DNA from: Lysobacteraceae bacterium SCN 69-320
Lineage (GTDB): Bacteria > Pseudomonadota > Gammaproteobacteria > Xanthomonadales > Rhodanobacteraceae
Reading direction: 5' to 3'
Assembly: GCA_001725155.1 (NCBI GenBank)
Contig: MEFP01000030.1
Location: 372,001-436,000, forward strand
DNA: 64,000 nucleotides
Shown piece by piece: positions 26,843-43,905 of this stretch. The position numbers were made by a program, and so were the translations under genes. Positions within the stretch are counted from its first letter, which is position 1; every line of letters starts with the position of its first letter. The notes under the pieces were generated by a model, which saw only the letters and a program-made list of their open reading frames with translations, was not told the DNA's origin and did not search any database.

Positions 26843-26860
26843 TTAGGTCGAGGAAAAACA

Positions 26861-27016: not shown

Positions 27017-27018
27017 CG

Positions 27019-28016: not shown

Positions 28017-28047
28017 TGCGCGAGCCGCGATGCCGTGCAATGCACGG

Positions 28048-28289: not shown

Positions 28290-28313
28290 CAAGTTCCATT
28301 CAGCTGATTGCGA

Positions 28314-30899
28314 TCACTGGAAACCGTTCGCGAAAATCTTGTCTACACAGCCCGGAGCGGCGGCGCCTGAACACGGATCACCGGTGGGAACGCCAGCGAG
28401 CGGATAGTACGTCGCGTCCAGCGCACCGGGCGGTGAATAGGGATTTGAACCGATGACATACTCCATGCCATCGACTAGTCCGTCACCGTCCGAGTCCGTC
28501 GGCGGGTAAGCATAGCCCAGATGCATACTGCTGCCTGACGGATAGGCGGCCGTGTAACCAGCCGCCTCGAACGTTGCGCGCTCAAACTCCAGGAAAATGG
28601 CGCAGTCATCGACCGACGTCTTGCACTTCCGATAGAGCTTCTGCGCCCCAGGCGGAATGCAGGCAGGTTCCAGCAGCACGCAAGGCGCATAAATGTAGCC
28701 TTGGATGGTTCTCAAGTCGTAGCCCTGTGCGTGAGCTGCCTCAATATCGGCCGTCGTCGTGACGAGCATCAGATCGCGATTGTTGCCATTGCAGCCCGGA
28801 TTGCCGGGTGTGCACCCTACCGGGAACGGACGCGAGCGATCCATGAGGTGGAGCGGTATCAGCGCCGGGTAGCCGGCCTTGGGCGTGTATTCGGTCGTCA
28901 AGACGTAGACGTTGGCCTTCGGCTGCGGCAGTGCCGTCGTTCCAGCCGGCGGCGGCGGGAAGCTCGAATAACCCGGAATGGTCTGTCCACTCGGCACATA
29001 CTGCTGACTCTGACTGATGATGTAGGCCATAGCCATCTGCGGCGACGTTGAATCGCCGTAGTCGTTCGCCGCCGCGCTGTAGAAACGAAACAGCGGCGTG
29101 ACGCGATTCTTGACCTGCACGCCGGCAACCACACCGAGCATCGTCTTAGCGGCCGTTGCGGCGTTGGGGCGGCCGTAGCCAAAGATGGGCGACCAGTAAC
29201 TGGGATTGGACTGCCGCTCATAGGTGCTCGACGCGAGCACGCTACGGATGCCTGCAACCTCGCCTAAGCTCGGATTCGGGACAGGCTTGCTCGGCGAGAC
29301 GAGAGGATTAACTGACCTCAGGAGACCGACCACGCCGGAAATCTGGGGCGACGACATGGACGTACCCGTACACAAGCCAACGCCACTACCCATGGGGCCT
29401 GGGAACTGGTCGCCGCACTGAAATCCCGTATTCCAGTTCATGTTCGGATAGGTCGTTGAGACAACGGCATCTGCCGACGCGACAACTTCCTGCAGCGGAT
29501 AGCCAGGATCATACGTGTAATTGGACCCGCACTGCGCTTCTGGGTAATCGGCTACGGGACAGTTTGCGGTTGAGCCAGGAGATTTGTCCCAAATCTGCAG
29601 ACTGCTGTTGAAGCCACCGGCAGCGATTACACGATCGTCACTCGCGGGAAAGTCCAATCTCCATCGGTCGTTTCCGGATGCCGCGATAAGAGCCACGCCA
29701 CGCGAGTTGGCATGAGATATCGCCAGACACCAGGAATCGTTTGGAGTTAGCGCGCAAAAATTTGGCTTACAATACGCGCTATTTGGATTATTCCATATGC
29801 AGCTAAAGCGGTTCGCATTGCCCATGCGGAAGCTCATATTAACCACCTGAGCACCCGAGTCGGAGAGCAGTGTCAGCGCCGCAGCCCCGGCTAAGTAATT
29901 CGAGTCGATCACAAAGGCTTCAATTTGCGGAATGCATACCCAATAGCTCATTTTCCACATGGCAATTCCGCAATGCTTGCAGGTTCCCCTAGGGGTAGAA
30001 CCTGCAACTCCGTTTGCTGCAATCAATCCACTGACGTGCGTGCCATGTCCGGCCAGAGTGACAGTTCGAGGTGGTAGTGTAGGCAAACCTTGGACACACT
30101 GATCGGTGGGCGGCGGCATCGGAATCTCGTTCTTCTCGTCGACGTCAAGCCGGACGAAATTAGGGATTCCGTTGACAACTTCCGTTGCGTATCCGACGTC
30201 GAGTGAGCTCGCAGGAATGAAGTTCCCTCCGGCATACTGTCCCGTCGGTGAAAATTGGCGCAGCTGAGGATGGTTGGTGTAGAGGCCGCTGTCGATAACG
30301 CCAACCAGTGCGTAGCCGCCCGCAACCTGCCATGCAGCGTCAATGTTCAACGCGTCGCGACCGTATTGGCTGCCCGCGTTGGTAGCATTGTCGTCGTGAT
30401 TTTCGACCGTGAAGCCCTGGAGCCTCGCGGAAGAGAAATTCCCCTTTGGCGCTTCGGAAGCGGCACCCACGCTAACATCCGCAAGAAGGGCGGATATCGC
30501 CGTTTGGAGGTTTGCCTGCGGCGGGTAGCGAACAACTATGTAGCGCTCAAGCTTCGACCGTTCCAACTGAGGATTGGTGTTGATGTAGTTCAGAAAGTCG
30601 CCCGATGCGCGAATGGGCAACAAATACGATGCTGAAATAGGATTTTCCACAGCCAACGCTGCAACTGGTGGGGCGCCTCTCGTAGCAGGGGATTGTTTGA
30701 AGTAGCCAACAACATCGTCAGCGAGCGTGTTGCCGCTATTCGGGAGCAGTAGGATTTGAACCAGTTGATCAGGTCCACTTTGGGATCTGGCAGTACCGGG
30801 CAGGAAGAAGCCGAGGATTGAGAAGATGGATAAGGCTAATGCAAAAGACGCAGCGCTGCTGCGCCGCAAGCCATTGGCGCGCGACCTCGTATAGCTCAT
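28314..30899 (-). CDS. Secreted subtilisin-like serine protease (S8)
   Basis: 861-residue exported protease. A signal peptide (about 1-39, basic MSYTRSRANGLRRSS then a hydrophobic core) and a propeptide-like region (about 40-180) precede the S8 domain with D203 (GVIDSGL), H285 (AGHGTHVSG), oxyanion Asn (ASGND) and S514 (GTSMSSPQISG). Cysteine-rich insertions lie in the catalytic domain. Near the C-terminus, DSDGDGLVDGMEY resembles a calcium-binding repeat, and the protein ends VDKIFANGFQ, a tail I recall on many secreted proteins of Lysobacterales. A terminator follows. Two small IPTL-CTERM proteins are encoded just upstream on the same strand, so it may process or act with surface proteins; this is inference from proximity. 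Confidence 0.92.
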   Translation of the reverse strand: MSYTRSRANGLRRSSAASFALALSIFSILGFFLPGTARSQSGPDQLVQILLLPNSGNTLADDVVGYFKQSPATRGAPPVAALAVENPISASYLLPIRASGDFLNYINTNPQLERSKLERYIVVRYPPQANLQTAISALLADVSVGAASEAPKGNFSSARLQGFTVENHDDNATNAGSQYGRDALNIDAAWQVAGGYALVGVIDSGLYTNHPQLRQFSPTGQYAGGNFIPASSLDVGYATEVVNGIPNFVRLDVDEKNEIPMPPPTDQCVQGLPTLPPRTVTLAGHGTHVSGLIAANGVAGSTPRGTCKHCGIAMWKMSYWVCIPQIEAFVIDSNYLAGAAALTLLSDSGAQVVNMSFRMGNANRFSCIWNNPNSAYCKPNFCALTPNDSWCLAISHANSRGVALIAASGNDRWRLDFPASDDRVIAAGGFNSSLQIWDKSPGSTANCPVADYPEAQCGSNYTYDPGYPLQEVVASADAVVSTTYPNMNWNTGFQCGDQFPGPMGSGVGLCTGTSMSSPQISGVVGLLRSVNPLVSPSKPVPNPSLGEVAGIRSVLASSTYERQSNPSYWSPIFGYGRPNAATAAKTMLGVVAGVQVKNRVTPLFRFYSAAANDYGDSTSPQMAMAYIISQSQQYVPSGQTIPGYSSFPPPPAGTTALPQPKANVYVLTTEYTPKAGYPALIPLHLMDRSRPFPVGCTPGNPGCNGNNRDLMLVTTTADIEAAHAQGYDLRTIQGYIYAPCVLLEPACIPPGAQKLYRKCKTSVDDCAIFLEFERATFEAAGYTAAYPSGSSMHLGYAYPPTDSDGDGLVDGMEYVIGSNPYSPPGALDATYYPLAGVPTGDPCSGAAAPGCVDKIFANGFQ

Positions 30900-30968
30900 T
30901 AGTTTTCCCCTGAATGGTAAACGCGAACGCTTTATTCTTGAGATTTTTCCGATGAAATCAGCAGGAAA

Positions 30969-31469
30969 TCACGTCGAACTTTTCCTCCAACTTTGGGCAG
31001 CTACGACAGCCAAGCAAAGCGCTGCGAGAAGCAACTGGAAGAAGGGAGATAGAGAAGGTATGGGAACTTCGTCGGGAACGCCCTGAGGCGCCACATTAAA
31101 AGCCAGTAGCCCCATAAATTGCGGAGGACCGCCGCCGGAGAGCACCCCGGGCTGGTAGTAGACAGTTAACGTGTAGTTGCCTGGAGGGAAAGACCCAACA
31201 ATGTATGTGCTGGTCGTTATCGGAAAATTACAGAAAGCGTTGATTCTCGCCGGAACAACTAGTGAGATTTGATTCCCATTCGTTGTTACAACCCCGTCTG
31301 TTGGCCAGCCATCGAACAAATGACAATCTCCGGCTCGGGTTAAGATAGAAATCTGTTGCCCGGCGACTGGATTTGTTGGAGACAGGATAGGGGGGTCAAA
31401 GAAAGCATGTGTGCTTGAGCTCAAAGCAGCCAGAGTCAAGAAACAAAATAGTCGCATTGAGTGCATCAT
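30969..31469 (-). CDS. IPTL-CTERM-type surface protein
   Basis: 166-residue exported protein. A signal peptide (about 5-22, RLFCFLTLAALSSSTHA), a beta-rich body with four Cys, and a C-terminal sorting tail: VPIPSLSPFFQLLLAALCLA then a polar/basic end (QSWRKSST). The tail matches the IPTL-CTERM pattern (here IPSL) recognised by an exosortase of the XrtH type, which removes the tail after export. ATG 31469 is chosen for GGAGG nine bases upstream. It is paralogous to the product of 31563-32087 (shared PP-L-P-PLAG and AG-C patterns). No exosortase gene is in the window, so sorting would rely on a chromosomal enzyme. Confidence 0.75.
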   Translation of the reverse strand: MMHSMRLFCFLTLAALSSSTHAFFDPPILSPTNPVAGQQISILTRAGDCHLFDGWPTDGVVTTNGNQISLVVPARINAFCNFPITTSTYIVGSFPPGNYTLTVYYQPGVLSGGGPPQFMGLLAFNVAPQGVPDEVPIPSLSPFFQLLLAALCLAVVAAQSWRKSST

Positions 31470-31562
31470 CACATCCAACCTCCGCGCATATGTCCTGCTG
31501 ACAATCGTTACTGTTGATCAGACTGAATTTTATTTACTGTCGTTTCTTTCTCGGTCCAGTTC

Positions 31563-32087
31563 TTATCTCCGATGGTGTTGTGGGGCATTGAAGTTGGAAC
31601 TCTTTTGATACATGCCAGTAACGACAACGCTGGCCAATATTAGAAGCAGCTTGAAGAACGATGACAACGTAGGGATGCGCATTTCCTGAGCAACACCGCG
31701 AACGACCAACTGAGTCGTCGCTAGCGGATCCACCACTGTCCCGAACACGGTCGAATAGCTTCGTTCGATTTGTAGCATATAGGTTCCTGCCTGGAAGGCA
31801 GAGATGACATACCGCCCCGTTCCCGATCCATAATTGCAGAATAGTGAATTTGTTTCATGCAAGCTTGGGAGAACGACGCGAAGATTTGTACCGTTCTGCG
31901 TTACCGGAATAGGTGTGGTCGAACCAAGGAACGCATCGCAATTACCCGCGGTGACGTCGATGGAGAGGATGTCTCCCGCCAGTGGCGATAGTGGAACCAG
32001 GACCGGCGGTGACACGACGGCTGAGGCTGGACATGCCGACAGCAATGCCAGTACAGCGATTAGCCCTCGAAAATAGCGCGATAGCAT
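31563..32087 (-). CDS. IPTL-CTERM surface protein (paralog)
   Basis: 174-residue exported protein. Signal peptide (MLSRYFRGLIAVLALLSACP ASA), a body of about 115 residues with paired Cys (AGNCDAF ... SLFCNYG), and a tail MRIPTLSSFFKLLLILASVV followed by TGMYQKSS and basic residues. IPTLS plus a hydrophobic helix plus a basic end is the classic IPTL-CTERM signal. ATG 32087 has TAGGAGG five bases upstream. It shares body pattern and tail with the adjacent gene, so the pair arose by duplication. It is probably displayed at the cell surface or released; ligand unknown. Confidence 0.78.
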   Translation of the reverse strand: MLSRYFRGLIAVLALLSACPASAVVSPPVLVPLSPLAGDILSIDVTAGNCDAFLGSTTPIPVTQNGTNLRVVLPSLHETNSLFCNYGSGTGRYVISAFQAGTYMLQIERSYSTVFGTVVDPLATTQLVVRGVAQEMRIPTLSSFFKLLLILASVVVTGMYQKSSNFNAPQHHRR

Positions 32088-32273
32088 TCGCCTCCTAATG
32101 ACAGTCGGCGCTTCTGGTGAAGCGCACTCCGGATTGTTCAGGAACGTCAAGGAATGGTGTTAGAAAATCGTTAAATTAACAGGGGCTATCGTCGGTGGGG
32201 CAATCTGCCGCGTTACCGTCGAGCCCAGGGGCACTCGCTCGGCAACGCCGCGACTCAACGGAAAGACGCTGAG

Positions 32274-32303
32274 AAAAAACAGGGGGGCTCCCCCCCTGTT
32301 CTT
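32274..32303 (-). terminator. Terminator of the RadC-like gene
   Basis: Stem AACAGGGGGG / CCCCCCTGTT with a short loop. On the minus strand it is followed by a T-run (plus AAAAAA). It lies a few bases after the stop at 32309. Confidence 0.85.
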
Positions 32304-32308
32304 TACCG

Positions 32309-32809
32309 CTAGATCAGGCCTTCTTCGGCCATGCTGACGGCGTTCATGCCGCCGACGACGAAGTGATCGAGCAACCGAACTTCCACGAGGCTCAGCGCGT
32401 CTTTGATCTCCCGCGTGATGTGCCTGTCTGCCTCGGAGGGCTCGCAGAAACCGCTCGGATGGTTGTGTGCCAGGATGACGGCCCCTGCGTTGTGTGAGAG
32501 GGCGCGGCGCGCGATGACGCGCGGATGCACGGGGCATTCACTGATCGAGCCGCGAAACAGAATTTCGCAAGCGATGACCCGGTGCCGGTTGTCCAGGAAT
32601 ATGCCCGCGAACAGTTCCTCCGGGTTGCCGAGAAATCGCTGCATGATCAGCTTGCGGGTGTCTCGCGGACTTTCCAGGAAGGCCAGGCGGTTCAATCGCC
32701 GCTGCGCAATGCTACGGGCCTCCGCGAGAATGCGTTCCTCGTAATCAGCATCGAACTCCTGCGGGAACACGACGCGGTGCCACAAGCGCTCTGCGGGATT
32801 GTCGAGCAT
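32309..32809 (-). CDS. RadC-family JAB/MPN domain protein
   Basis: 166-residue protein with the RadC JAB fold: IFLDNRHRVIACEILFRGSI, HPRVIARRALSHNAGAVILA, metal-binding HNHPSG and downstream Asp (EADRHIT), LLDHFVVGG. Unlike full-length chromosomal RadC it lacks the N-terminal helix-hairpin-helix domain; about 50 other residues precede JAB. Short RadC-like proteins of this kind are frequent on genomic islands and phage, with no proven activity (a metal-dependent nuclease or protease has been proposed). ATG 32809 with GGAGG upstream. A repeat-rich non-coding region lies upstream. Confidence 0.85.
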   Translation of the reverse strand: MLDNPAERLWHRVVFPQEFDADYEERILAEARSIAQRRLNRLAFLESPRDTRKLIMQRFLGNPEELFAGIFLDNRHRVIACEILFRGSISECPVHPRVIARRALSHNAGAVILAHNHPSGFCEPSEADRHITREIKDALSLVEVRLLDHFVVGGMNAVSMAEEGLI

Positions 32810-32812
32810 GTT

Positions 32813-33234
32813 TTCGCCTCCAGCCCCGCAACGCGGGGCATCTGTGGGATGCCCCACGCCGGGACGGCGCGGGAAAAAGGTAAATGGTGTTGCGCCGATA
32901 TTCCTAGCAGCGGCAACCACGCGCTTCAATCCCACTGTGTAGGTAGCTGACTTTCTAGTGCTCGAATCGCACGCCGCATGGCGACGAAAAAGTGACGACG
33001 TGATGACCTAGCCGCGGTGCTCCGTGATGACCAAGGCTCAGAGCCTGCCGTGACGACGCAGGCCGTCACGGGCCTAGCACGCTTCTTTCTTCCCGAGAAT
33101 CAGCGCCTGGCTTGGCTGGGCGCTGGCCGTCACTGTCAGCTGGCGCCGCCAGTGACGGCCACAGATTTGCCGGCATGGTTTTATGGTGGGCGACAGATCA
33201 GTTCCTTTCGGCTGCTGCTGCACGGAAGGAACGA
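32813..33234. other. Non-coding, repeat-rich region; candidate origin
   Basis: About 420 bases without a gene. It holds four GTGAYGAC octamers (32992-32999, 33000-33007, 33024-33031, 33050-33057), an inverted pair CCGTGAC / GTCACGG (33048-33054 / 33065-33071), and an 11-bp inverted repeat GGCCGTCACTG / CAGTGACGGCC (33125-33135 / 33150-33160). The density of direct and inverted copies of one word resembles an iteron-type origin or an oriT; the role is inference. A GC-rich hairpin near 32825-32860 lies in the radC leader. Confidence 0.5.
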
Positions 33235-33915
33235 CTAGCGCCCGCCGCTGTTGCGTGGCCGCTTGGCGTAGGCCGCATTTAACATGCGCTGTGGGCCTCC
33301 GTTGGTGTACGCAAACACGTTAGGGTCTAACAGTACATACGTAACAAAGATGATGTTTTCGGCTGGCGCTACCCCACATTCAGCCTCGACGCTGGCCATT
33401 CGATTTCTTGAAATACCGGAAAGCACCGCTCCGTTCCCGTTTGGCAGGAGCGCGCGGTCCGTGAACTCGAAGTCGCTTTTTAGTGCCGGTTCTTCCCGCT
33501 CGAAGAGAACTTTTCCGTCTTCCGCGCTACAACTCCAAGGCAAACTGACGGCGGCAATGAGTTTCCAGTAGCGCTCTGTTGCAGACTCCGGCTGCTTGAA
33601 CTGCACCACCAGTCGCGTCGTCTTTATCCCGCCGTAATACTCCTGCGGCGGCGAGATCTCGAATGCATTGGGAATGCTGCGCGATAGCGAAAGAGAGACG
33701 TTCGCAGGCAGTGCTTTGACGAACTCTTCGTAAGTGCTGCCGAGTGGCGGTAATCCCATGGCCCGCAGACTGTGTGCTGGCACTGCCGGAGTGGCAGCAG
33801 CGGCTTGGGCGGCTGCCTGTACGGGGGCATCGCTCCCGGTGCAACCGGGAAGTCCAATGCAGAGCACGGGAACCAGGAACGCGAGGATGAGTTTCAGGGT
33901 TAGAGGCTTGGTCAT
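33235..33915 (-). CDS. Hypothetical lipoprotein
   Basis: 226-residue protein with a lipoprotein signal: MTKPLTLKLILAFLVPVLCI then LPGC (lipobox, Cys at about 25). A Ala/Pro/Gln-rich linker (about 28-47) precedes a globular domain not recognised (GLPPLGSTYEEFVKALPANV, KTTRLVVQFKQPESATERYW, FVTYVLLDPNVFAY). Predicted anchored in the outer or inner membrane facing the periplasm. It diverges from the XRE regulator gene, with a palindromic region between them. Confidence 0.7.
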   Translation of the reverse strand: MTKPLTLKLILAFLVPVLCIGLPGCTGSDAPVQAAAQAAAATPAVPAHSLRAMGLPPLGSTYEEFVKALPANVSLSLSRSIPNAFEISPPQEYYGGIKTTRLVVQFKQPESATERYWKLIAAVSLPWSCSAEDGKVLFEREEPALKSDFEFTDRALLPNGNGAVLSGISRNRMASVEAECGVAPAENIIFVTYVLLDPNVFAYTNGGPQRMLNAAYAKRPRNSGGR

Positions 33916-33953
33916 GACGCGTCCACTCCCGGAGGACCAGTAAGGCCATAAAA

Positions 33954-33973
33954 GACTAGTCTAGTTTGGACTA
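33954..33973. promoter_or_regulatory. Candidate operator between lipoprotein and XRE genes
   Basis: GACTAGTC (33954-33961) is a perfect palindrome, overlapping TAGTC ... GACTA with a seven-base centre; a further GGACT follows. Located in the 103-base divergent gap, it is a natural site for the adjacent XRE repressor. Also AT-rich compared with its surroundings. Confidence 0.45.
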
Positions 33974-34018
33974 ATCCCGGTTGGACTCTAGCGTGGGCTG
34001 CCTTCTGCTGGCAAGCCC

Positions 34019-34318
34019 ATGGCGCACTCGACCCACCACCAGGAGTACCGGCTGCTGATGACCCTCCTGCGCGAAGTACGCCGGGAGCTTGGGGTCACGC
34101 AGATCGAGCTGGGGCAGCGGCTGGAGAACACCCAGACCTTTGTCTCGAAGGTGGAGCGCGGAGAACGGCGCCTCGACGTGGTGGAGTTCGTCGAGTTCTG
34201 TGAGGCCATCGGCGCGCCGCCCCAAGAGGTGTTTGCGCGGTTCATCAAGCAACGCCAGGAGGCCGGGACGCCACGCCTGAAGAAGGCCGCAGCAGGCAAG
34301 CGAACGCGGCCTGCTTAG
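34019..34318 (+). CDS. XRE-family transcriptional regulator
   Basis: 99-residue protein with one helix-turn-helix of the Cro/CI type (about 13-72: LREVRRELGVTQIELGQRLE, QTFVSKVERGERRLDVVEFV), then FCEAIGAPPQEVFARFIK and a basic tail. Typical of small phage/ICE repressors acting as dimers on short palindromes. It precedes the TM/T4CP/coiled-coil unit on the same strand and may control it and the divergent lipoprotein gene. Start ATG 34019; no strong ribosome site is seen. Confidence 0.85.
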   Translation: MAHSTHHQEYRLLMTLLREVRRELGVTQIELGQRLENTQTFVSKVERGERRLDVVEFVEFCEAIGAPPQEVFARFIKQRQEAGTPRLKKAAAGKRTRPA

Positions 34319-34427
34319 AGTCAAGTGGCGAAGCCGAGACGGGCGGTCGGCATGTGAGAGGACCATCCCACTCGTAGCACATCCTTCCCCAACGCGTACC
34401 TGTCCTACGCACCTAGGGGAAGTAGCA

Positions 34428-35153
34428 ATGTGGAAGCGGCGCAGAACCTGGACTACGCTTGCGCTACTGATCTTGCTGAACCTTTTGGCCTGGGACATAC
34501 GAACTGATCCCCAGGCATACGCGGCCTACATCCAGTTACATCAGCACCCGGTTAAAAACGGGGTTGAATACACGGCGCTTCGGCCCGCCCGCTTTTACTT
34601 TGACAGCGTCTGGTACTCCTATGCAGTCGCGCTGCTAGTCGGGTTTGGGCTGCCTTTCCTTCTACCCCGTCTTTTGCCCTGGGCATGGCAAAAGCGTCAT
34701 GTCCTTGCGTACTACATTCACAAGGCCGCCCCACATGCCGCTTGGCTAGGGCGCCACAGCGTCAATGTGTTCTTCGCCTTCCTGAAGGTCGTCCTGCTGC
34801 TGATGATGGGCCTTGTAGGCGCCTTGCGCGCATCAGGGAAGCTCTGGGTTGTCGTAGCGCTGTTGATTGTCTTCAACGTCCTCGCCTGGGACTGGAAGAA
34901 AACCCGAGAAAAAGATGAACTGCTCCTCGTGCTTCAGGAGCGGCAAACAGAGACAGACGCCGGGTTTACACGCTACATCGCCACGCACTACTACGGCATT
35001 GCCCCCGGAATCAGCTTACCGGATCGGGACACCTCGATTTTTGCTTCCGTGCTGGTCGGAGAAGTTCTGCCGTTCCTGGTTCTCCCGTCGCTTGTCCGTC
35101 GTCGCCGACCACTGGTCATACCGCAACCGCCTGTGGTGGGAGCGCCGCGATGA
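34428..35153 (+). CDS. Membrane protein with internal tandem duplication
   Basis: 241-residue membrane protein made of two similar halves. A first helix ending NLLAWD (residues 8-23) recurs as FNVLAWD (140-155), and AVALLVGFGLPFLLPRLL (66-83) recurs as ASVLVGEVLPFLVLPSLV (206-223); a middle helix lies at about 115-132. Each half is helix, periplasmic loop, helix. ATG 34428 has AGGGGA upstream. The stop overlaps the start of the TraG/VirD4-like gene as ATGA, so the two products are probably made together and this may be its membrane partner. Family not recognised. Confidence 0.7.
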   Translation: MWKRRRTWTTLALLILLNLLAWDIRTDPQAYAAYIQLHQHPVKNGVEYTALRPARFYFDSVWYSYAVALLVGFGLPFLLPRLLPWAWQKRHVLAYYIHKAAPHAAWLGRHSVNVFFAFLKVVLLLMMGLVGALRASGKLWVVVALLIVFNVLAWDWKKTREKDELLLVLQERQTETDAGFTRYIATHYYGIAPGISLPDRDTSIFASVLVGEVLPFLVLPSLVRRRRPLVIPQPPVVGAPR

Positions 35154-37201
35154 ACCTTGAAGCCCTCTGGTCCACTCTTCAAGTCATCATCGCGATAGTC
35201 GTTGTCTTGCTGCTCATACGTGCGGTGTCGGTCTGGCGCGGACGGCGTGCAATGCAAGCCGTGCTCGATAGCGCACATGCCTCGTCAGCAGTTGCCCACG
35301 GCACAGCCGACTGGAGCCGGAACGCTTACCCCGGCGTCGGATCTGGCTCGTTGTTCCTGGGGGCCGCCAATGGCAGCGCCATGTACTACGACGGCGACCA
35401 GCACCTGATAACGGTTGCCCCGACCCGGACCGGCAAGGGAACCTGCCACATCATCCCCAACCTGCTGACCTACCAGGGCAGCATGGTCGTAAACGACATC
35501 AAGGGGGAAAATTTCAAGGAGTCGAGCCAGCAGCGGCTGAAATTCGGCCAGGTGTTCCGGTTCGCGCCCTTCGCAGAGGATACCGACGGCTTCAATCCGC
35601 TGGACTTCGTGCGGCGAGGAACCCCGGCCGCGTTCGATGACGCGATGCTCGTGGCAGACATGCTCATCGTGCCGGGGAGCAACGACGACGAGGGCAATCA
35701 CTGGAAGGAGGCCGCCAAGAACCTGCTGGCGGGCCTCATTGGCTACGTGACCGAGAGGGAGCCGATAGCAACTCGGAACCTACAGCGCGTGCGCGAGCTG
35801 CTGACCCTCGACCAAAAAAGCTTCCTGGCGTTCGTCCAGGAGGCAATGGCGGACCCGGCCGGACCTCCTTACGTCGTACGCGCGGCCAACATGCTGTTAC
35901 AGAAAGCAGACCGCGAGCGCAGCGGTGTCATCTCGACGGCGCAGGCGCAGACTTCGATATGGGATAGCGAGCCGCTGGCGCGGGCAACACGGATCAGCAC
36001 CTTCAAGGTGGAGGAACTGCGTGACCAGGTAGCAACCCTCTACATCATCGTGCCGCCGGAGCACCTAAGCACCTACAAGAGCGTGCTGCGCGTTGTCCTC
36101 GGCCTGGCCCTGTCCAGCATGACCAGGAAACCACCGGAGCGAAGTGAACGGCCGCCCCTGACCTTTCTGTTCGACGAGTTCCCCAGCCTGGGCTACATGC
36201 AGCCTGTCGTTGACGCGATGGCCTATCTGGCAGGGTACGGCTGTCGCCTATGGCTCTTTGCCCAAGACCTGGGGCAAATCCGCGAGATTTACGGCGACAA
36301 CACGACTTCCTTGCTGGCGAACTGCGGGGCGCGGGCCTTCTTCGGCGTCGCCGACTACGAAACCGCCGAATACGTGTCAAAGATGGCCGGGCAGAAAACC
36401 GTCCTGACTTCGACCCGGAGCCTCAAGACCAGCCGAGTTCTGTTCTGGGACGACATCTGGGGCGTCGAATCCCAGAACCTGCAATACATCGGCGTCCCGC
36501 TCATTGCGCCGGACGAGGTGATGCGGATTCCCGTACGGGGCGACCAGCAGCGGCAGATCGTGTTCCTGCAAGGACAGGCGCCAGTTCTCGCGCTGAAAAT
36601 CCCTTACCACGTCGTCGATGCCTGGGCCGCCGCCGCCGTGCGCGCCCCGGTGTCGGTGCAACTCGACCAGGCGCCTATGCCGCCGAGCACCGCATCAGAA
36701 CCGCCGCGACAGCCGGAAGGTGCCGCAGCAGCCGATGCCGTTGCCAAGGCCAAAGCCTACGGGGCGGCCGCGGCCAAGAAGGCAAAGCCCTGGGCTTCTG
36801 CGGCCGCCAGCGCGGCCAAGACCGGCGCGGCACATCTGGGCGAGAAGATTTCACTTGTAACCCAGCAAGGAGCTGCTTACATAAAGGAAGGCAACAAGCG
36901 AAAGGGTCAGGGAATGGCCAAGAATTACGAAACCATCGACGAGATCAAGGCGAGCTCCGAGCAGACCCGTGAAAACATGGTTGATTTCGCACGCTTCGTG
37001 CGGGAGACGGAGGGCAACATTCGTCTCTGTGAAGCAGAAATCGCCGCGCTAGCACCCAATGACCCAAGACGGGCAGTTTTCGAGGAAACACGCTCGGGTC
37101 TTGAGCGCAGCTTAGCTAGCAATCGCCGCATGGTTGAAGTTGGCCGCATTCTGCTTGATGGCGGAGAGGCAATCGTTGAATCAATCGAGGACGGAGCATG
37201 A
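35150..37201 (+). CDS. TraG/VirD4-like coupling ATPase
   Basis: 683-residue hexameric-motor-type ATPase. An N-terminal membrane segment (about 10-26), Walker A PTRTGKGT (91-98), the VVNDIKGENF motif (113-122) and Walker B LTFLFDE (337-343) with AQDLGQIREIYG downstream match type IV coupling proteins that feed DNA or protein to a secretion channel. The C-terminal 150 residues are unusual: an Ala/Lys-rich stretch followed by a helical region (YETIDEIKASSEQTRENMVD ...). Its start and stop both overlap neighbours as ATGA. No relaxase or channel genes of known families are in the island, so it either borrows a host system or does something else. Confidence 0.88.
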   Translation: MNLEALWSTLQVIIAIVVVLLLIRAVSVWRGRRAMQAVLDSAHASSAVAHGTADWSRNAYPGVGSGSLFLGAANGSAMYYDGDQHLITVAPTRTGKGTCHIIPNLLTYQGSMVVNDIKGENFKESSQQRLKFGQVFRFAPFAEDTDGFNPLDFVRRGTPAAFDDAMLVADMLIVPGSNDDEGNHWKEAAKNLLAGLIGYVTEREPIATRNLQRVRELLTLDQKSFLAFVQEAMADPAGPPYVVRAANMLLQKADRERSGVISTAQAQTSIWDSEPLARATRISTFKVEELRDQVATLYIIVPPEHLSTYKSVLRVVLGLALSSMTRKPPERSERPPLTFLFDEFPSLGYMQPVVDAMAYLAGYGCRLWLFAQDLGQIREIYGDNTTSLLANCGARAFFGVADYETAEYVSKMAGQKTVLTSTRSLKTSRVLFWDDIWGVESQNLQYIGVPLIAPDEVMRIPVRGDQQRQIVFLQGQAPVLALKIPYHVVDAWAAAAVRAPVSVQLDQAPMPPSTASEPPRQPEGAAAADAVAKAKAYGAAAAKKAKPWASAAASAAKTGAAHLGEKISLVTQQGAAYIKEGNKRKGQGMAKNYETIDEIKASSEQTRENMVDFARFVRETEGNIRLCEAEIAALAPNDPRRAVFEETRSGLERSLASNRRMVEVGRILLDGGEAIVESIEDGA

Positions 37202-37560
37202 GCACCATTCTGAGTGCGGCGGATTCAGCTTGGAAAGAGCTAAATCAACTTTACGCGGAACTGAGACCTCTCTACTCAGAACGTACTTCCTTGGAAAGTA
37301 CTCGCGTTCAGCTGCAGCTATCCCGGAGGGATACGCAGGACATCGATCACCAGCTATCGGCAACAAAACAGGCAATAGCTAGCAAAGAATCTCTCCTTGA
37401 GAAAGTCGGTCTTGAGTTCCGAACGGCCATGGCAAATGTCGAAGCCGAGCAAAAGCTGACGGAAGCAAAGGCCAGGGAGGCCGAACGAGAGAAGGAGCGT
37501 GAAAAGGAACGAAAGCAGGAATTTTACAGAAAGCATCCAGTCGACGATCTGGACCTCTAG
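37198..37560 (+). CDS. Coiled-coil protein coupled to the T4CP-like gene
   Basis: 120-residue, almost wholly helical protein: heptad-rich regions (about 5-85) and a charged C-terminal segment of repeated Glu/Lys/Arg (AREAEREKEREKERKQ). ATG overlaps the upstream stop as ATGA. No signal or membrane segment. It probably associates with the helical C-terminus of the ATPase. Family unknown. Confidence 0.65.
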   Translation: MSTILSAADSAWKELNQLYAELRPLYSERTSLESTRVQLQLSRRDTQDIDHQLSATKQAIASKESLLEKVGLEFRTAMANVEAEQKLTEAKAREAEREKEREKERKQEFYRKHPVDDLDL

Positions 37561-37587
37561 GCGCTTCAGATCTACAGCCACCGATTC

Positions 37588-38238
37588 TTAGAGGGAACTG
37601 TCTGCAATCTCACGAGCGCGGTGCGCAATCAAAGCTATCTTTGTCCACAACAACTCCGCGCTTTTTGCCACCTGTTCCAGCCTCTTTTCATCGTTACTCG
37701 ACCACAATTCCTGAGGAAGCAGAGCCTTTTTTCCTAAGAGCAAGGTTTCGCGATCAAAGTCACGACCTTGCTCGATCGCCTCAGCAAATGACGCTTCTGA
37801 CCCGTCAAGTAAGTGCGCGCGTTCTAGAAATGTGACTAGCTCGTGCGGTGCAGAAAATTCAATGCGCGTTTCGCCGCCCAGGTATTTGCCAGCAATCTCC
37901 CGACTGTTTCCTTGGGCCAAGAAGCGTCCACCAATCCCGACGCGTGCGCTCCATTCCTCAAGGGGCGGAAGTATTCGCCTCGCAAAAGCCCGAGCGGCAG
38001 TAGCTTCTGCTTTGCGTTGGTCAATCAATACGTGCCTTCGCTGTAGGCTGGCCACCAAAAAAACCGCTATCAACGTGCCCGCCGAGAGCAAGGCTTGCGC
38101 CCAGGCTGCGCAGGCACTTAACCAGCCCGCATCTTTCATGCATAACGGCTTGACTTCTAGGAAACCGATGCCCAGCCCGACGACCAACATGCCCCATCCA
38201 AGGCCGGCAGCTGCGATCTTCAATACTCTACGGGTCAT
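37588..38238 (-). CDS. Hypothetical membrane protein
   Basis: 216-residue protein with two N-terminal helices (about 8-28 and 42-62) and a helical cytoplasmic part (QRRHVLIDQRKAEATAARAF ... LLWTKIALIAHRAREI). The architecture, two helices then a helical soluble region, is common among unknown proteins on islands. It is convergent with the coiled-coil gene. Not recognised. Confidence 0.62.
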   Translation of the reverse strand: MTRRVLKIAAAGLGWGMLVVGLGIGFLEVKPLCMKDAGWLSACAAWAQALLSAGTLIAVFLVASLQRRHVLIDQRKAEATAARAFARRILPPLEEWSARVGIGGRFLAQGNSREIAGKYLGGETRIEFSAPHELVTFLERAHLLDGSEASFAEAIEQGRDFDRETLLLGKKALLPQELWSSNDEKRLEQVAKSAELLWTKIALIAHRAREIADSSL

Positions 38239-38340
38239 AGTCTTCCCTCTGATTGCGTCTTAGATAGGTGTATGCAGTCCGCGATCTTCGCAGCTCCACG
38301 ACCACATGTAGTGAGCGAAGGCTAAGCGCAACTAGCGGCC

Positions 38341-39222
38341 TTATCGTCCTAGATAGACGGCCGTAATCTGCTCCCGCTCGTGGCCGAGCTCGCGGGAAAT
38401 CTTCAATCGGGCCTCGCGGTCGCGGGCTTTCTCGATGGCGGCGAGCTGCCGCGACGTTGGCCCACCGGCGGCGGGGCAAGGGAAGCCCGCTTCTTCCAGG
38501 TAACGCCGCTGCGCGTACTGATGCCGTAGGCCGTGGGTCTTGGAGATCCCGGCCTTCGCCGTCTGGTGCTTGAAGGTGTTGAGCTGTTCGACGTAGAGCT
38601 TGTTGGACGGAATGAGGGAGCCGCCTTTGGCGAAGGCGGCGACCTCTTGAAGCAAGGCCACCTGTTCCTCTGTCCGTATCGGCACCTCACGTGGCCGTCC
38701 ACCCTTGCACCAGGACGCCTTGAGCTGCACGACCTGCCCAACCTCGATCGCCTCCAGGGCGATCTTGGGGCGGAACTTCAGTGCTTCCTCGCGGCGCAGG
38801 CCAAGGGCGGCCTGCAAACGCAGGGCGTACTGCGTCCAGGGGTCTGTAACCCGTTCCAGGCCATCGTCGCCTAGCGCAACAGCTTTCGTTTTGTTGGTGA
38901 CGTACTTGCGATCAGCGATGCCATAAAAGGCGTTGTCGCCGGCGATGATGCCCGGCTTGCCGACCTTCTCGGCCCACCACCGAAGGGCCGCCATACGGTT
39001 CTTCACGGTGCCGACCGACAGGTCTTGCCCGCGCCAGAACTTCACCAATGCCTCAACGTGCTTCGGCTTGAGGCTGTCGGCTGTCATGTTCTGGTAGCCG
39101 AGCCCCTTGAGGTCGTCGGCCATCTTGGTCAAGGTCTTTAACCTTTCTGCCTGGGTGCCGAAGCTCCCATCCTTGTTGCGGTAGGCCAGATGTCGCAGGT
39201 CGTATTTCAAGCTCACACGCAT
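38341..39222 (-). CDS. Tyrosine recombinase, Integrase_1-like (copy B)
   Basis: 293-residue recombinase, paralog of the product of 27019-27876 (shared ESLKPKH-like, VKNRMAALRWWAEKVGKP and THGLRH blocks). An N-terminal SAM-like domain (about 1-110) and a catalytic domain with Arg (QAALGLRREEALKFR), Lys (SWCKGGRPREVPI), His/Arg (THGLRHQYAQ), His (RELGHERE) and a nucleophile Tyr four residues from the end (VYLGR) are complete. A GTGCC hairpin lies 132 bases upstream, as for copy A. Possible roles: recombination at internal sites, multimer resolution, or DNA nicking in transfer. Confidence 0.85.
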   Translation of the reverse strand: MRVSLKYDLRHLAYRNKDGSFGTQAERLKTLTKMADDLKGLGYQNMTADSLKPKHVEALVKFWRGQDLSVGTVKNRMAALRWWAEKVGKPGIIAGDNAFYGIADRKYVTNKTKAVALGDDGLERVTDPWTQYALRLQAALGLRREEALKFRPKIALEAIEVGQVVQLKASWCKGGRPREVPIRTEEQVALLQEVAAFAKGGSLIPSNKLYVEQLNTFKHQTAKAGISKTHGLRHQYAQRRYLEEAGFPCPAAGGPTSRQLAAIEKARDREARLKISRELGHEREQITAVYLGR

Positions 39223-39353
39223 TTGCCGGAGTTCCGGTAAGTGTTCACGCCGTCACTGGTGGCTCCGGGAGCCGTCCAGCAACCCAGCCTCGAACGGATC
39301 GAGACTGGCAGGGGCAAGTGAGCTTGGGCGCATCGAATGATGCACCCGCGTTT

Positions 39354-39367
39354 GTGCCTGTTGGCAC
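39354..39367. repeat. Hairpin upstream of recombinase copy B
   Basis: GTGCCTGTTGGCAC, the counterpart of 28003-28016 (one base different, in the loop). It sits 132 bases before the copy B start. Conserved position and sequence at both recombinase genes. Confidence 0.55.
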
Positions 39368-39415
39368 CTCCTTTCTTCGCAGGTTGTTGACCTGATGGGT
39401 TTTCATACGACGGTG

Positions 39416-39691
39416 CTAGCTCTCCTCCTGGCCGGAAGGAGAAAGCACCCGGTGCAGGTTTTTCGCGTGGGCCTGTCCACGTTGAGGGTTGCCCCTCGAA
39501 CCGTCCTGGAACGCCTCTAAGCGTCGTTTCAGGCGTTCCGCTTTGCCCCGGCTCATGTCGCGTTCGTGGCGCGCCTGTTCTGTCGCTTGGTGCGCTTCCA
39601 TGAGAGCGACCAGCAGGCGCGCGTTCTCCCGGCGGAGGGTTCCGACTTCCGCACGGAGGGCCGCGAGCTGTTCCGCGCTGCTGGTCGTCAT
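39416..39691 (-). CDS. Small coiled-coil protein
   Basis: 91-residue helical protein: MTTSSAEQLAALRAEVGTLR, NARLLVALMEAHQATEQARH, SRGKAERLKRRLEAFQDGSR, with a basic polar tail. The first 65 residues form a heptad pattern. ATG 39691 is chosen; a TTG at 39718 would add nine residues. Could be a small DNA-binding or KfrA-like accessory protein, but no such motif is certain. A conserved hairpin lies about 56 bases upstream. Confidence 0.55.
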   Translation of the reverse strand: MTTSSAEQLAALRAEVGTLRRENARLLVALMEAHQATEQARHERDMSRGKAERLKRRLEAFQDGSRGNPQRGQAHAKNLHRVLSPSGQEES

Positions 39692-39746
39692 GCAGCCATC
39701 ATTCTGAAACCGTGCCAAAAAATCAATGTGTACCGAGGTGTTTCAT

Positions 39747-39791
39747 GCGTCGTCATTGTCAGCTTGGCAGCCAATGACGACGCTGTTTTTT
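39747..39791. repeat. Conserved hairpin, partner of 33125-33160, followed by T6
   Basis: Perfect 12-bp stem GCGTCGTCATTG (39747-39758) / CAATGACGACGC (39772-39783), then TG and TTTTTT on the plus strand. The stem and loop resemble the hairpin at 33125-33160: GTCAYTG ... CARTGAC with a shared TCAGCT-GGC loop. One stem pair changes from C-G to T-A, i.e. covaries. It could terminate plus-strand transcription or be a protein-binding DNA hairpin. Confidence 0.6.
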
Positions 39792-40324
39792 ACCCGCCTC
39801 GCTACCCCGAAAACACCCCCATCTGACTCCAACACAAAGCCGAAAGCGCGTTCTTCAGCTTTGTGAAAACGAAATATACATTGTCGGTTGACGCAGCTCG
39901 GGCGATGCCTCACCGAGCGCGGGTTAGATCCTTCGCGGTTTCGGCGACCCGCCTTCAACAGCCCCTCCCCCAGTGCGACTCCTGGAACAACACACTTCCT
40001 AACAGCGCCCTCGAAAAGTGCGCTACTGACAGAAGCGTCATCGGAATACGAGGCGATCGCTAGTGCCTAAAAGGTAAATACACTGTCGCGAGACGGCTAA
40101 TTCTCTCACCGCAGTTTCGGCATTGAAAACAGCCACCCGTGGCCGAGCTATGGGTGCTCCATCGCGTCCAAGTGGGGCGCATCAAGGTGTCGAAATTCGA
40201 GCGATGAATGCAATGGTGCGGTGCGCTATGCGCGCGGTCGCGTCGAGGGAGTCGCGCACAGTGGCTTTTTTGTTTCCAGCCTGTGGCGTTTCTGGTACAG
40301 ATTAGGTGATACGGGAGAACCTCG
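39792..40324. other. Spacer before the Gabija genes
   Basis: About 530 bases with no supported gene. Short frames are Arg/Cys-rich and lack ribosome sites. The last 60 bases before gajA are AT-richer (TGGTACAGATTAGG near 40297-40310) and probably hold its promoter, but no clear pair of boxes is seen. GGGAGAA lies six bases before the gajA start. Confidence 0.45.
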
Positions 40325-42136
40325 ATGAGAATAAGCAGGGTCGTAATAAAGAACTTTAGGTCGTTCGACCTCCTTGACGTATCGCTGTCCGAGACAACGA
40401 GCTGCGTCATTGGCGAGAACAACACCGGCAAGAGTAACTTCCTGCATGCGATTCGCCTCTGCATTGACGCATCGCTTCCGTCCACGTACCGGTCACTAAT
40501 CGCAAGCGATATTCATGCGGCGCTCGACCTCTCGAATCCTGAGCAGGTTCTTGTCGGATTGGAGATCGTCGACTTTTCAGGGAAGATCAACGAGGAGGCA
40601 CTTGTTGGAGCATGGCAATGTGAGCCTGGCGTCGCGCGCATCATCTACCGCTTCCGCCCGAAGTTGTCCGTAAGGGAGGATCTAGAAGCGGAGGAGATCT
40701 CGCCTGGAGACCTGAAGCTTTCCGACTATCAGTGGGAGATCGCCGGCGGTGGTGATGGCGCCAAGGGCCTCGCAGAGATCGAATGGGACGAAGATGTCGG
40801 GACAGCCATCAGATTCAGCGATCTGCAGTCGTTCTTGGTCGTCTTTCTGCCAGCGTTGCGCGATGTTGAGAGCGAACTACGCCAGTTCCGTAGTTCGCCG
40901 CTGGCGCGCCTCATCGAAGCAATGGAAATTGACGAGGACGAAAAGGATGAGTTAGTTGAGATACTTCGCGAGGCGAACGACAAAATAGCGGGCTCGACTT
41001 CTATTGAGCAAATCGCAGCAGCAATCGACAGTTCATTCAAGAACGTTTCGGGGCCAGCCTTCAGCATGGACGTGGCTCTCGGCTTAGCCGAGCCGTCTTT
41101 CCAGGCAATTCTTAGGGCTCTACGGATCTTGCTAAGCAATAAGGTGGTGACGGACTTCGACCCTGGCTCAAACGGATTGGGCCTAAACAACATTCTCTAC
41201 GTTGCCATCCTCATTGAGTACTTCCATAAGCGAGTGGCACAAGGGAAGACGGCAGGACAGATAATCTTGTTTGAAGAGCCTGAAGCTCATCTACACCCTC
41301 AATTGCAAGTATCGCTTTTCAAGGCACTAAGCGCTCTGCCGTTTCAGTCGATCTTGACGACACATAGCACGCATATCACATCGAATGCCCCTTTGTCGTC
41401 ATACGTCGTTCTTACTCAACTACAGGACGGCGGGGTTGCGGCGTGCGTGCCGTCGGTTGATGCCGAGCTAGAGGAATCCGAAGTACGCGACCTCGAACGC
41501 TATCTCGATGCCACGAAATCGAACCTACTCTTTGCGCGCAAGGTGATGCTTGTCGAGGGGCCTGCAGAGCTGTTCTTGATTCCGGCACTGTTCAAGGCGG
41601 TAAAAGGCATTGACCTTGAGAGAGAGGGGATTTCAGTAATTCCCATCTATGGCGTTCACTTCGACGTTTACGCAAAACTATTCTCAGAGGGTTCGCTAAA
41701 TAAGAAATGCGCCATCATTGCAGACGGGGACCTGAAACCCAGCGATGCAGACCCAGAACTTGAAGGAGAGGATGATCTTCCTGAAGCTACAAACTTAAAA
41801 GAGCTAGAAAATGACCATGTTCGAGTGTTCACCTGCGTTACTACATTTGAGCGTGCGCTAGTCAACGAAGGAACTCTTAGCATGTTCGCGCAAGCGGCGG
41901 ACGAGGTGGGAGCTCCGAAGGTCGCGGCAAAACTACGCAAGGGCGCAAAGGATCTTGCGAAAGCGCAAGCGGATCAGAAGAAAAGCATACTAGACCCACT
42001 CCGCAATTCCGTTCTGAGTACGGCTATTCGCTTCGGAAAAGCTCGTTTCGCGCAGTTAGCAGCTGGGCACGCAGTGTCTGCGAAGCTTATGCCGAAGTAT
42101 CTCGTCGATGCTCTCGAATGGTTGCGCGAAGAATGA
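40325..42136 (+). CDS. gajA: Gabija nuclease GajA (OLD-family ATPase-TOPRIM)
   Basis: 603-residue protein. An ABC-type ATPase domain with Walker A GENNTGKS (30-37), an inserted region (about 90-270), and ABC Walker B IILFEEPEAH (313-322) followed by TTHSTHI. The TOPRIM domain has VMLVEGPAE (E411) and the metal-binding IIADGDLKPSD (D467, D469). GajA nicks DNA when nucleotide pools fall, and with GajB blocks phage. The stop overlaps the start of a UvrD-type helicase gene as ATGA, the standard Gabija/class 2 OLD arrangement. AT-richer than the chromosome, so acquired. Confidence 0.92.
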   Translation: MRISRVVIKNFRSFDLLDVSLSETTSCVIGENNTGKSNFLHAIRLCIDASLPSTYRSLIASDIHAALDLSNPEQVLVGLEIVDFSGKINEEALVGAWQCEPGVARIIYRFRPKLSVREDLEAEEISPGDLKLSDYQWEIAGGGDGAKGLAEIEWDEDVGTAIRFSDLQSFLVVFLPALRDVESELRQFRSSPLARLIEAMEIDEDEKDELVEILREANDKIAGSTSIEQIAAAIDSSFKNVSGPAFSMDVALGLAEPSFQAILRALRILLSNKVVTDFDPGSNGLGLNNILYVAILIEYFHKRVAQGKTAGQIILFEEPEAHLHPQLQVSLFKALSALPFQSILTTHSTHITSNAPLSSYVVLTQLQDGGVAACVPSVDAELEESEVRDLERYLDATKSNLLFARKVMLVEGPAELFLIPALFKAVKGIDLEREGISVIPIYGVHFDVYAKLFSEGSLNKKCAIIADGDLKPSDADPELEGEDDLPEATNLKELENDHVRVFTCVTTFERALVNEGTLSMFAQAADEVGAPKVAAKLRKGAKDLAKAQADQKKSILDPLRNSVLSTAIRFGKARFAQLAAGHAVSAKLMPKYLVDALEWLREE

Positions 42137-43905
42137 AGCTCACCAAAGAGCAGCGCGAAGCCGTCCTCTATGACCAGAACACCATTCTCTCGGCGTGCCC
42201 AGGAAGCGGGAAGACGCGGGTCATAATCTCAAAGATAGTTCGCGTCCTCGATGAGGTTCGGACTACGCCACGCCGCGTGTCGTGTATCACGTACACGAAC
42301 ACGGCCGTGCATGAAATCGAGTCTCGCATCCAGGTTCATCTGCAACCCGATGACGAGCGATACTTCGAAGTAAGCACGATACATTCATTCTGCCTAAACA
42401 ATATTTTTCGTCTTTTTAAGCATTTTGTTCCCGGTTATGAAACTGGATTTAGGGTCCTGACTAGGGAAACTCCTGATTTCGAAAGGTTAGTCCGCGCTGT
42501 TTGGGCAAAACATAATCGCGTGGACATCGGCTATAGCGATTTCGAAGAGTTTACCCAGCTACGGTTGGACGTGACTGGCGAGCCGGTCGGCAACTCTATT
42601 GATCGAGGGGCTATCAACGCGCAGGTCGCAAAAGACTACTGGGCGCGTATCCAGGCCGAAGGCTTTATCGACTTCGCGAATATTGTCTACCAGTCACTGA
42701 AGCTGTTGCGCGAACACGCCGAGATTCTCGACTACGTATCTGCAAAATTCGCATGGATATTGGTTGACGAGTTCCAGGACACCAGTGACCTGCAAGTAGA
42801 AATTCTGTCGATCATAGCGGCGAAAGGACGCACTCGTCTGCTACTAGTGGGGGACCAGGTGCAGTCAATTTTTCGTTTCGCAGGCGCACGCCCTGACTTG
42901 GCAGATAGTTTCGCAAAGAAAATAAACGCCCGTACGGACATCAAGCTTTCTGGAAATTTCCGCTCAAGCAAGCCGATCATTGCTCATGCAGAGCGCTTGT
43001 TTTCGCGCAATCCTCCGATGGCCGCCCTCGGCTCATCGGCAGAGTTCACGGAAAAGCCGGAATGGTGGTTCGGCAATCGACCCTTTGATGTTATAACCGA
43101 GCGATTCCTTCCTATGCTCAAAAAACTGAGCATACCGATTGGAAACGCGGCGATTCTCGCCCCGACTTGGTTCTCCCTTTTTCCGCTTGGCAAGCTATTG
43201 CGCGGAGCAGGCATCCCAATTGTGGGGCCAGGCGCAAGACCTTACAGAAAAGGGCAGTTTGCGCCAATAGCTGAAGCTGTATGCGGATACCTCATGGATT
43301 CCAACGGTTCCGGTATAGCCTCAGTTGAAAAGGCTCTTTTCAGTACGCTGTTGGACACAACTGGCCGCCCCAATTTCGGAATATTTTCGTATAGAGGGCG
43401 CGCGACGGCGTTTCGCCTCATCGCTATCGCGAAAGAACTCCGGAAAACGACTCCGGGCGCAGTACCTTGGCTCAGAGCGTCAGCCGATGCCTTTTCTGAT
43501 GTACTCATTGAGGAGGAGTACATGAGCCGAGAGGAGAAACAGATATTCGCTCTCTCGGTAGAGGCGATGAACGCAGACATTATTAAGAACAAGATCGACC
43601 CGGCAGGGCTTTCACTTGACGATCTGGGTATTTACGCGAGCCCGAACACTGCGCTCAAACTCTCGTCGATCCATTGGTCTAAGGGGCGAGAGTTCGACGC
43701 CGTAGCAATGATTGACTTGCACGAGCGAGTGATTCCCTCCGGATACTCGACATCGACCGAGGATTTCGCGGAGCAGAAGCGCCTCTTCTACGTTGGTGTC
43801 ACTCGCGCGCGCCGATATTTGTTGTATGTAACGGAACGACAGCCTCGCAATGGCCCATCGCGATATCTTCTTGAAGCCGATGGGGTCGGATTCAAGGCCA
43901 GTTGA
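42133..43905 (+). CDS. gajB: Gabija helicase GajB (UvrD/Rep family)
   Basis: 590-residue superfamily 1A helicase. Walker A SACPGSGKT (20-28), TYTNTAVHEI, STIHSFCLN (motif Ib region), Walker B LVDEFQDTSDLQ (D212-E213), motif III-IV LLVGDQVQSIFRFAGA, NFRSSKPI, and C-terminal IHWSKGREFDAV and LFYVGVTRAR. All motifs are intact. GajB senses DNA ends or ssDNA and activates GajA, using nucleotides. ATG 42133 overlaps the gajA stop; a GTG-like upstream extension to 42118 is less likely. Somewhat longer than the classic Bacillus GajB (about 500 residues). Confidence 0.9.
   Translation: MKLTKEQREAVLYDQNTILSACPGSGKTRVIISKIVRVLDEVRTTPRRVSCITYTNTAVHEIESRIQVHLQPDDERYFEVSTIHSFCLNNIFRLFKHFVPGYETGFRVLTRETPDFERLVRAVWAKHNRVDIGYSDFEEFTQLRLDVTGEPVGNSIDRGAINAQVAKDYWARIQAEGFIDFANIVYQSLKLLREHAEILDYVSAKFAWILVDEFQDTSDLQVEILSIIAAKGRTRLLLVGDQVQSIFRFAGARPDLADSFAKKINARTDIKLSGNFRSSKPIIAHAERLFSRNPPMAALGSSAEFTEKPEWWFGNRPFDVITERFLPMLKKLSIPIGNAAILAPTWFSLFPLGKLLRGAGIPIVGPGARPYRKGQFAPIAEAVCGYLMDSNGSGIASVEKALFSTLLDTTGRPNFGIFSYRGRATAFRLIAIAKELRKTTPGAVPWLRASADAFSDVLIEEEYMSREEKQIFALSVEAMNADIIKNKIDPAGLSLDDLGIYASPNTALKLSSIHWSKGREFDAVAMIDLHERVIPSGYSTSTEDFAEQKRLFYVGVTRARRYLLYVTERQPRNGPSRYLLEADGVGFKAS

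Follow-up and report, generated by a model that had tools for sequence, protein, structure and literature searches.

We analysed a window of 64,000 nucleotides, positions 372001-436000 of contig C30 in the genome of Lysobacteraceae bacterium SCN 69-320 (host genome G000, genus Tahibacter), and found in it a mobile island carrying a conserved cassette of three genes at 34428-37560. These genes encoded a membrane protein, a TraG/VirD4-like coupling ATPase (type IV coupling protein, T4CP) and a small coiled-coil protein. With middling confidence, and judging from sequence comparisons, we interpret the cassette as a coupling module carried by an integrative mobilisable element that depends on a type IV channel from outside (a helper). 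The cassette itself was a rare variant, and a pattern on plasmids described below was the more general lead.

The mobility of the island was apparent from a comparison of eight Tahibacter genomes (the host and seven others; seven of the eight were at least 90% complete). The same chromosomal place was empty in all seven other genomes. Their left flank, at ~20.68 kb of the window, was joined to 46.45-46.48 kb in five genomes and to 48.45 kb in two. The guanine-cytosine (GC) content in 2-kb windows was ~0.51-0.65 within the island and ~0.65-0.75 outside it. The island reached well beyond 34019-37560, the stretch to which the first-pass annotation had drawn attention. Related versions were present at other places in T. 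aquaticus DSM 21667 (G226; NZ_SNZH01000019), from the same genus as the host, and, partially, in genome G229; the stretch common to these other islands began at ~21016-21059. The site used in the window was empty in both genomes, and their related island parts lay on other contigs. Moreover, the ligase gene adjoining the island in the window was found in G226 and G229 on contigs other than those of their islands, suggesting that the islands occupied different sites. With an integrase (int1) at its left end and insertion at differing places across genomes, the island had two characteristics of an integrative mobilisable element. The two T. aquaticus island contigs both started in radC and probably abut one another. 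The island was a mosaic with three recombinases (int1, int2 and int3), and an attachment-type (att) direct repeat at its ends was not detected at an exact length of 10-11 bases or more.

The genes of the cassette were coupled by ATGA overlaps at 35150 and 37198, and the same overlaps were present in T. aquaticus (locus L002). These overlaps had been correctly described in the first-pass annotation, as part of a four-gene unit headed by an XRE regulator. The regulator was recognised as such from its HTH_31 domain, but tblastn found no counterpart of it in the related islands (L002, L030 and L031). Therefore, the four-gene unit was dropped and the conserved unit was taken to comprise three genes. 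The order of the genes for the membrane protein, ATPase, coiled-coil protein, MP2, int3 and CC2 was identical in T. aquaticus, and a Gabija defence pair located after int3 in the window, 2.8 kb from the cassette, was not matched anywhere in the stretches fetched from T. aquaticus and G229. This combination makes the block look like the backbone of the island and not its cargo. In G229, two different contig edges held the start of the membrane-protein gene and part of int3, respectively. The core of the ATPase was under purifying selection: the rates of nonsynonymous and synonymous substitution (dN/dS), each from one sequence pair, were 0.146/1.15 (~0.13) for residues 1-500 and 0.439/1.04 for the tail. 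The dS values of int3 (0.62) and CC2 (0.25) were lower than that of the T4CP block (1.12), so these two less diverged genes may move separately from the block.

The identification of the second gene product as a T4CP-like ATPase was well founded. In Pfam the protein matched T4SS-DNA_transf (PF02534, E 6.2e-80) and TraG-D_C (E 3.6e-26), both above the cut-off, and TrwB_AAD_bind (E 1.1e-22), a domain content that defined it as a T4CP, and the motifs APTRTGKG and TFLFDEF, which we take to be Walker A and Walker B, were intact. The sole match in the PDB (phmmer) was Cag5 (8dol, E 3.5e-14), and PHROGs gave nothing of weight for any of the three cassette genes. VirD4/TraG coupling proteins have an N-terminal membrane domain, usually with two transmembrane (TM) helices. 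In the window ATPase, a single TM helix was predicted by hydropathy only (residues 10-28), and the adjoining gene encoded TM hairpins. From these two features we infer that the membrane protein may contribute the membrane part that is built into other coupling proteins. The two halves of the membrane protein were indeed homologous, as had been noticed at first sight (local score 77 against a shuffle mean of 27.8, z 11.3, none of 500 shuffles as high), and by eye each of them consisted of a TM helix, a loop of ~40 residues and another TM helix. A simple hydropathy scan marked three segments in the window protein and six in its T. aquaticus counterpart; the AlphaFold model of the window protein was poor (mean predicted local distance difference test score, pLDDT, 47.9). 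Just upstream of the T. aquaticus membrane-protein gene, frames at L002 3123-5522 resembled by eye the IS21 transposase genes istA and istB. The helical C-terminal extension of the ATPase, also recorded in the first-pass annotation, was recovered in the structural model as predicted helices at 577-633 and 639-681, with ten-residue pLDDT means of 60-85 within 601-670. The whole model was poor (mean 37.3), and this tail and the N-terminal helix were its two better parts.

Close relatives of the ATPase were rare. The host alone reached E 1e-66 in a class-wide draw of 370 genomes, and within the family 14 of 233 genomes, host included, reached E 1e-60. Identity was 77% over residues 1-527 in T. 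aquaticus and 32-38% in the other 12 genomes. The membrane protein was present in two of 299 genomes of the order. Viral contigs held no relative of the ATPase, and genome contigs held one. A tree of 25 coupling proteins, 23 of them different, placed the ATPases of the window and T. aquaticus together as a pair (support 100/99), outside the clade formed by the remaining T4CPs of the family (15 rows, 13 different). Their grouping with a protein of Rhizobium X9 (87/81) was on a very long branch and unsure. The closest T4CPs outside the genus (38% identity) were encoded near TraA or MobA/MobL relaxases (L036, L039 and L102).

Coupling motors normally serve DNA passage between cells. In the proposed mechanism, the ATPase would assemble into a hexameric motor of the usual kind, held in the membrane by its own TM helix and probably also by the hairpin-repeat membrane protein. 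Recruitment of the DNA-protein substrate would probably fall to the coiled-coil protein and to the helical hairpin at the C-terminus of the ATPase. An incoming conjugative plasmid would provide the type IV channel, to which the motor would then pass either the element itself after excision or a MobA/MobL element residing in the same cell. Candidates for the nicking enzyme are the MobA/MobL relaxases of the host, acting in trans, or the tyrosine recombinases of the island, one of which might act as an atypical relaxase.

The available transfer machinery was surveyed on the island, in the host and across the eight genomes. By Pfam, no relaxase, VirB4-type ATPase or channel protein was recognised among 19 window proteins, all within the island (the scan left aside int2 and a pair of small genes at 26238-26803, and an origin of transfer was not sought). 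This agreed with the first-pass annotation and set the island apart from an integrative and conjugative element (ICE). The same annotation had proposed checking the host for a type IV secretion system (T4SS), and none was found with VirB4 (PF03135) and VirB10 (PF03743) as markers; a helper would thus have to come from outside. The window ATPase was the sole PF02534 protein of the host; one further match was found in T. aquaticus and none in the other six genomes. Genome-wide relaxase searches covered PF03432, which was absent from all eight genomes, and MobA/MobL (PF03389), which had 11 matches in five of the eight. Four of these were in T. aquaticus and three in the host (G000:C1:265680, G000:C30:185620 and G000:C3:47971), all three outside the island. 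Two of the three host loci (L113 and L114) were near frames that resembled, by eye, tyrosine integrases. Thus, the ATPase was stand-alone, as had been stated, with respect to T4SS parts, but not with respect to relaxases elsewhere in the genome. Two alternatives had been offered at first, hijacking of a type IV system or a different machine re-using a coupling ATPase. The former was better supported, given the block shared between islands, the closest outside relatives beside MobA/MobL or TraA and the signs of selection; even so, the host had no detectable T4SS to be hijacked.

Several of these observations weigh against a coupling module. The main one was that VirB4 was found in none of the eight Tahibacter genomes, and VirB10 occurred only in G225, which is not the host and had no PF02534 protein. 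The ATPase gene has stayed under selection though no helper T4SS was found in this sample. Moreover, the island had no recognised relaxase, and the MobA/MobL loci (nine of 11 fetched) had no protein in common with it at E 1e-8. In G229, of which the membrane-protein start at a contig edge was available, the ATPase had no match. Finally, the T4CP was merely 38% identical to its closest relatives outside the genus.

The recombinase int3, which adjoins the block, led to a wider pattern. Its residues R143, K173, H230, R233, H281 and Y290, which we take to be the catalytic ones, were invariant in 12 of 12 aligned sequences. The presence of an N-terminal PF12834 domain distinguished int3 from MOBM relaxases, in which the DNA-binding domains of recombinases are absent. 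In T. aquaticus (L002), copies of the int3 3' end lay directly after the coiled-coil gene (9088-9117) and between MP2 and int3 (10063-10112), as if the end of the recombinase gene were a recombination site at which segments had been stacked. Among 63 recombinase frames, such copies were found nearby only in L002, apart from mutually duplicate frames (L035 and L063) and matches of 13-18 bases (L108 and L109).

Relatives of int3 were encoded on 166 of 72,556 plasmid records (E 1e-5), of which 108 were typed non-mobilizable. A T4CP of the pSIO1/Acinetobacter type, used as a query, matched 46 plasmid records (E 1e-40). All 46 were typed non-mobilizable and all held a PF12834/PF12835 recombinase or, in one record, a piece of it. 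Of the 46, 43 fell among the 60 listed of 79 recombinase records, some partly aligned. In the remaining three the recombinase was at the record end: it was whole across the record start in L111, divided into two frames in L110 and represented only by a 47-residue piece in the linear L045. These plasmids were related; the 46 records (41 from Acinetobacter, 3 from Psychrobacter, 1 from Pleionea and 1 from Vibrio) corresponded to 29 species-and-length types. The recombinase was upstream of the T4CP and in the same direction in L035, L041 and L109, with a small gene between them in L041 and L109, and no hairpin-repeat protein was seen. This T4CP represented a distant lineage (15-19% identity to that of the window). 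T4CPs of the Rhizobium X9 type were found on seven plasmid records, six of them with the recombinase (split over two frames in L105); the seventh had none in 40 kb of its 75-kb annotation. A MobA/MobL or other mobilisation gene was present in five of six annotated X9-type records (L037, L038, L105, L106 and L107) and was not annotated in the L108 stretch. Thus, the recombinase need not be the relaxase on these plasmids.

We tentatively suggest that a PF12834/PF12835 recombinase and an orphan VirD4-like motor might recurrently be paired as a two-part module for DNA processing, which would have arisen independently with at least two, perhaps three T4CP lineages. The recombinase would act either as a relaxase or in motor-driven recombination, and the module would be hidden on plasmids and islands typed as non-mobilizable. 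This suggestion, which we hold less firmly than that of a coupling module, has to be set against the 17 of 60 recombinase records that, among the matches listed, had no Acinetobacter-type T4CP. Among plasmids with annotation, L034, L040 and L046 had the recombinase and no annotated T4CP. Whole genomes also argued against it. In 40 stretches, representing 41 of 44 non-host recombinase matches and many of them cut by contig ends, a VirD4-type neighbour was found in none, and a general association between recombinase and T4CP was not apparent at the whole-genome level. Three weak TraD-type matches were near the recombinase (L047, L048 and L049), and those in L047 and L049 were confirmed by Pfam. 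Wider literature listings, screened by title and the beginning of the abstract, included nothing on a module of recombinase and T4CP, and no match was found for orphan or relaxase-less coupling proteins in a search that most subscription papers fell outside and that is no proof of novelty. Plasmid names led to one table mention of pSIO1, and the accessible part of that on PF12834/PF12835 includes work on a Shewanella plasmid.

The same pattern bears on a reading in which the cassette would be a machine similar to FtsK-Xer: a membrane-anchored motor that pumps the DNA of the element and joins sites for the neighbouring tyrosine recombinase during excision, integration or dimer resolution, without any transfer channel. 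Such a machine needs no T4SS and gains from the lack of one in the genus sample. It would also agree with the constant position of int3 beside the block in T. aquaticus, with the copies of the int3 3' end there, and with two distant T4CP lineages travelling with the recombinase family on plasmids. However, the recombinases in the fetched whole-genome stretches had no VirD4-type neighbour, more than a quarter of the listed plasmid records were without the Acinetobacter-type T4CP, and the lower dS of int3 and CC2 suggested that they might move independently of the block. Overall, we consider this reading unlikely. A similarly low probability is given to the T4CP and its companions being remnants of an ICE from which relaxase and channel have disappeared. 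The mosaic structure of the island and the relaxase and channel genes not found on it speak for such decay. On the other hand, all three genes were open, their overlaps were kept in two species, the core of the ATPase was under purifying selection, and the T4CP branched outside the clade of T4CPs from the family. According to the first-pass annotation, a decayed ICE would be indicated by a larger related element carrying a relaxase and a T4SS. Instead, T. aquaticus and G229 were likewise without VirB4 and PF03432, and none of the MobA/MobL genes was on the contigs holding their islands.

It is more doubtful still that the cassette is an anti-phage or anti-plasmid system with a re-purposed coupling ATPase, residing in a defence island with Gabija. 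Besides the proximity of Gabija, this idea drew on a weak partial match of the ATPase (residues 250-416) to mad8 of PADLOC (E 3.1e-5). However, the Gabija pair was not shared with the T. aquaticus stretches, and the membrane and coiled-coil proteins had no PADLOC match up to E 1, so that no described system was recognised. Both defence and decay are thus less likely than the coupling-module reading. Coupling proteins feed effectors to channels in some other systems, and the ATPase might accordingly deliver a protein and not DNA for export or killing. The helical tail would at most be compatible with the binding of an adaptor, and no channel was found in the host; we regard this possibility as very improbable.

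In comparison with known systems, the window ATPase shared with the VirD4/TraG T4CPs of L036, L039 and L102 the PF02534, TraG-D_C and TrwB domains, the Walker motifs and a membrane anchor. In contrast to them, it had no relaxase recognised on its island, and it differed in its single predicted TM helix, in the hairpin-repeat membrane protein encoded separately and in the helical extension at its C-terminus. Integrative mobilisable elements that encode a T4CP of their own exist, according to the accessible part of PMC11389934. As described there, they resemble the island in being integrated, in having a tyrosine recombinase and a coupling ATPase, and in having no channel; the island differs in its lack of a recognised relaxase. 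Relaxases of the tyrosine-recombinase type, namely TcpM (pCW3), MpsA (SGI1) and MobK (pIGRK), are described in the available parts of PMC8152469 and PMC6414798. Similar to int3, they have the tyrosine recombinase fold and conserved catalytic residues and are found on mobile elements. However, they are reported in the available part of PMC8152469 to have no DNA-binding domains of ordinary recombinases, whereas int3 retains its PF12834 domain and is only a candidate for a relaxase role. The pSIO1/Acinetobacter-type plasmids were alike in the recombinase family and the VirD4-like ATPase. In the Gram-positive pIP501 system, a small protein with two TM helices was proposed to anchor the coupling ATPase (the TraJ-TraI pair; accessible part of PMC12857230), and the membrane protein of the window can be related to it by analogy only.

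Should the cassette indeed function in coupling, the island would be mobilisable and yet be overlooked by typing schemes based on relaxases. The plasmid pattern poses the question of whether a recombinase and a coupling motor are enough to mobilise small plasmids, or whether the motor serves recombination.

Table 1. Features of the island in window coordinates (identities given for T. aquaticus or for the indicated loci)
Feature	Position	Strand	Remarks
Mobile island (insertion)	20690..46447	.	~25.7 kb; exact ends approximate; from empty-site comparison and GC content
int1, tyrosine recombinase	21167..22465	+	PF00589; left end; homologues ~80% (L030) and ~77% (L031) identical
int2, recombinase of the int3 family	27019..27969	-	59% identical to int3
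RadC-like protein	32309..32935	-	PF04002, E 7.2e-41; common to other island versions
XRE regulator	34019..34318	+	HTH_31, E 1.2e-8; not conserved with the cassette
Membrane protein	34428..35153	+	two TM-loop-TM cassettes (three in T. aquaticus); ATGA overlap with ATPase gene
TraG/VirD4-like coupling ATPase	35150..37201	+	one predicted N-terminal TM helix; helical C-terminal extension (~490-683)
Small coiled-coil protein	37198..37560	+	ATGA overlap with ATPase gene; counterpart L002 8743-9081, 41% identical over 86 residues
MP2, membrane protein	37588..38238	-	75% identical in T. aquaticus
int3, recombinase	38341..39222	-	PF12834 and PF12835; 94% identical in T. aquaticus; catalytic R-K-H-R-H-Y retained
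CC2, small protein adjoining int3	39416..39718	-	92% identical in T. aquaticus
Gabija defence pair GajA and GajB (cargo)	40325..43905	+	E 8.8e-292 and 4.2e-247

Other parts of the island contained additional genes. The two small genes at 26238-26803 (minus strand), beside int2, resembled by eye a toxin-antitoxin pair of the ParD/ParE type and were conserved in L030. A large subtilase (PF00082) was encoded at 28314-30899 (minus strand), and one long frame of L030 matched both this subtilase and the neighbouring small proteins. In the G229 island (L031 1967-5811), a pair of genes that looked by eye like a DNA methyltransferase and a helicase (restriction-modification) occupied the interval from the membrane-protein fragment to radC. 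The right end of the window's island encoded two proteins with the SRAP (SOS response associated peptidase) domain, at 44261-45202 and ~45458-46177 (minus strand).

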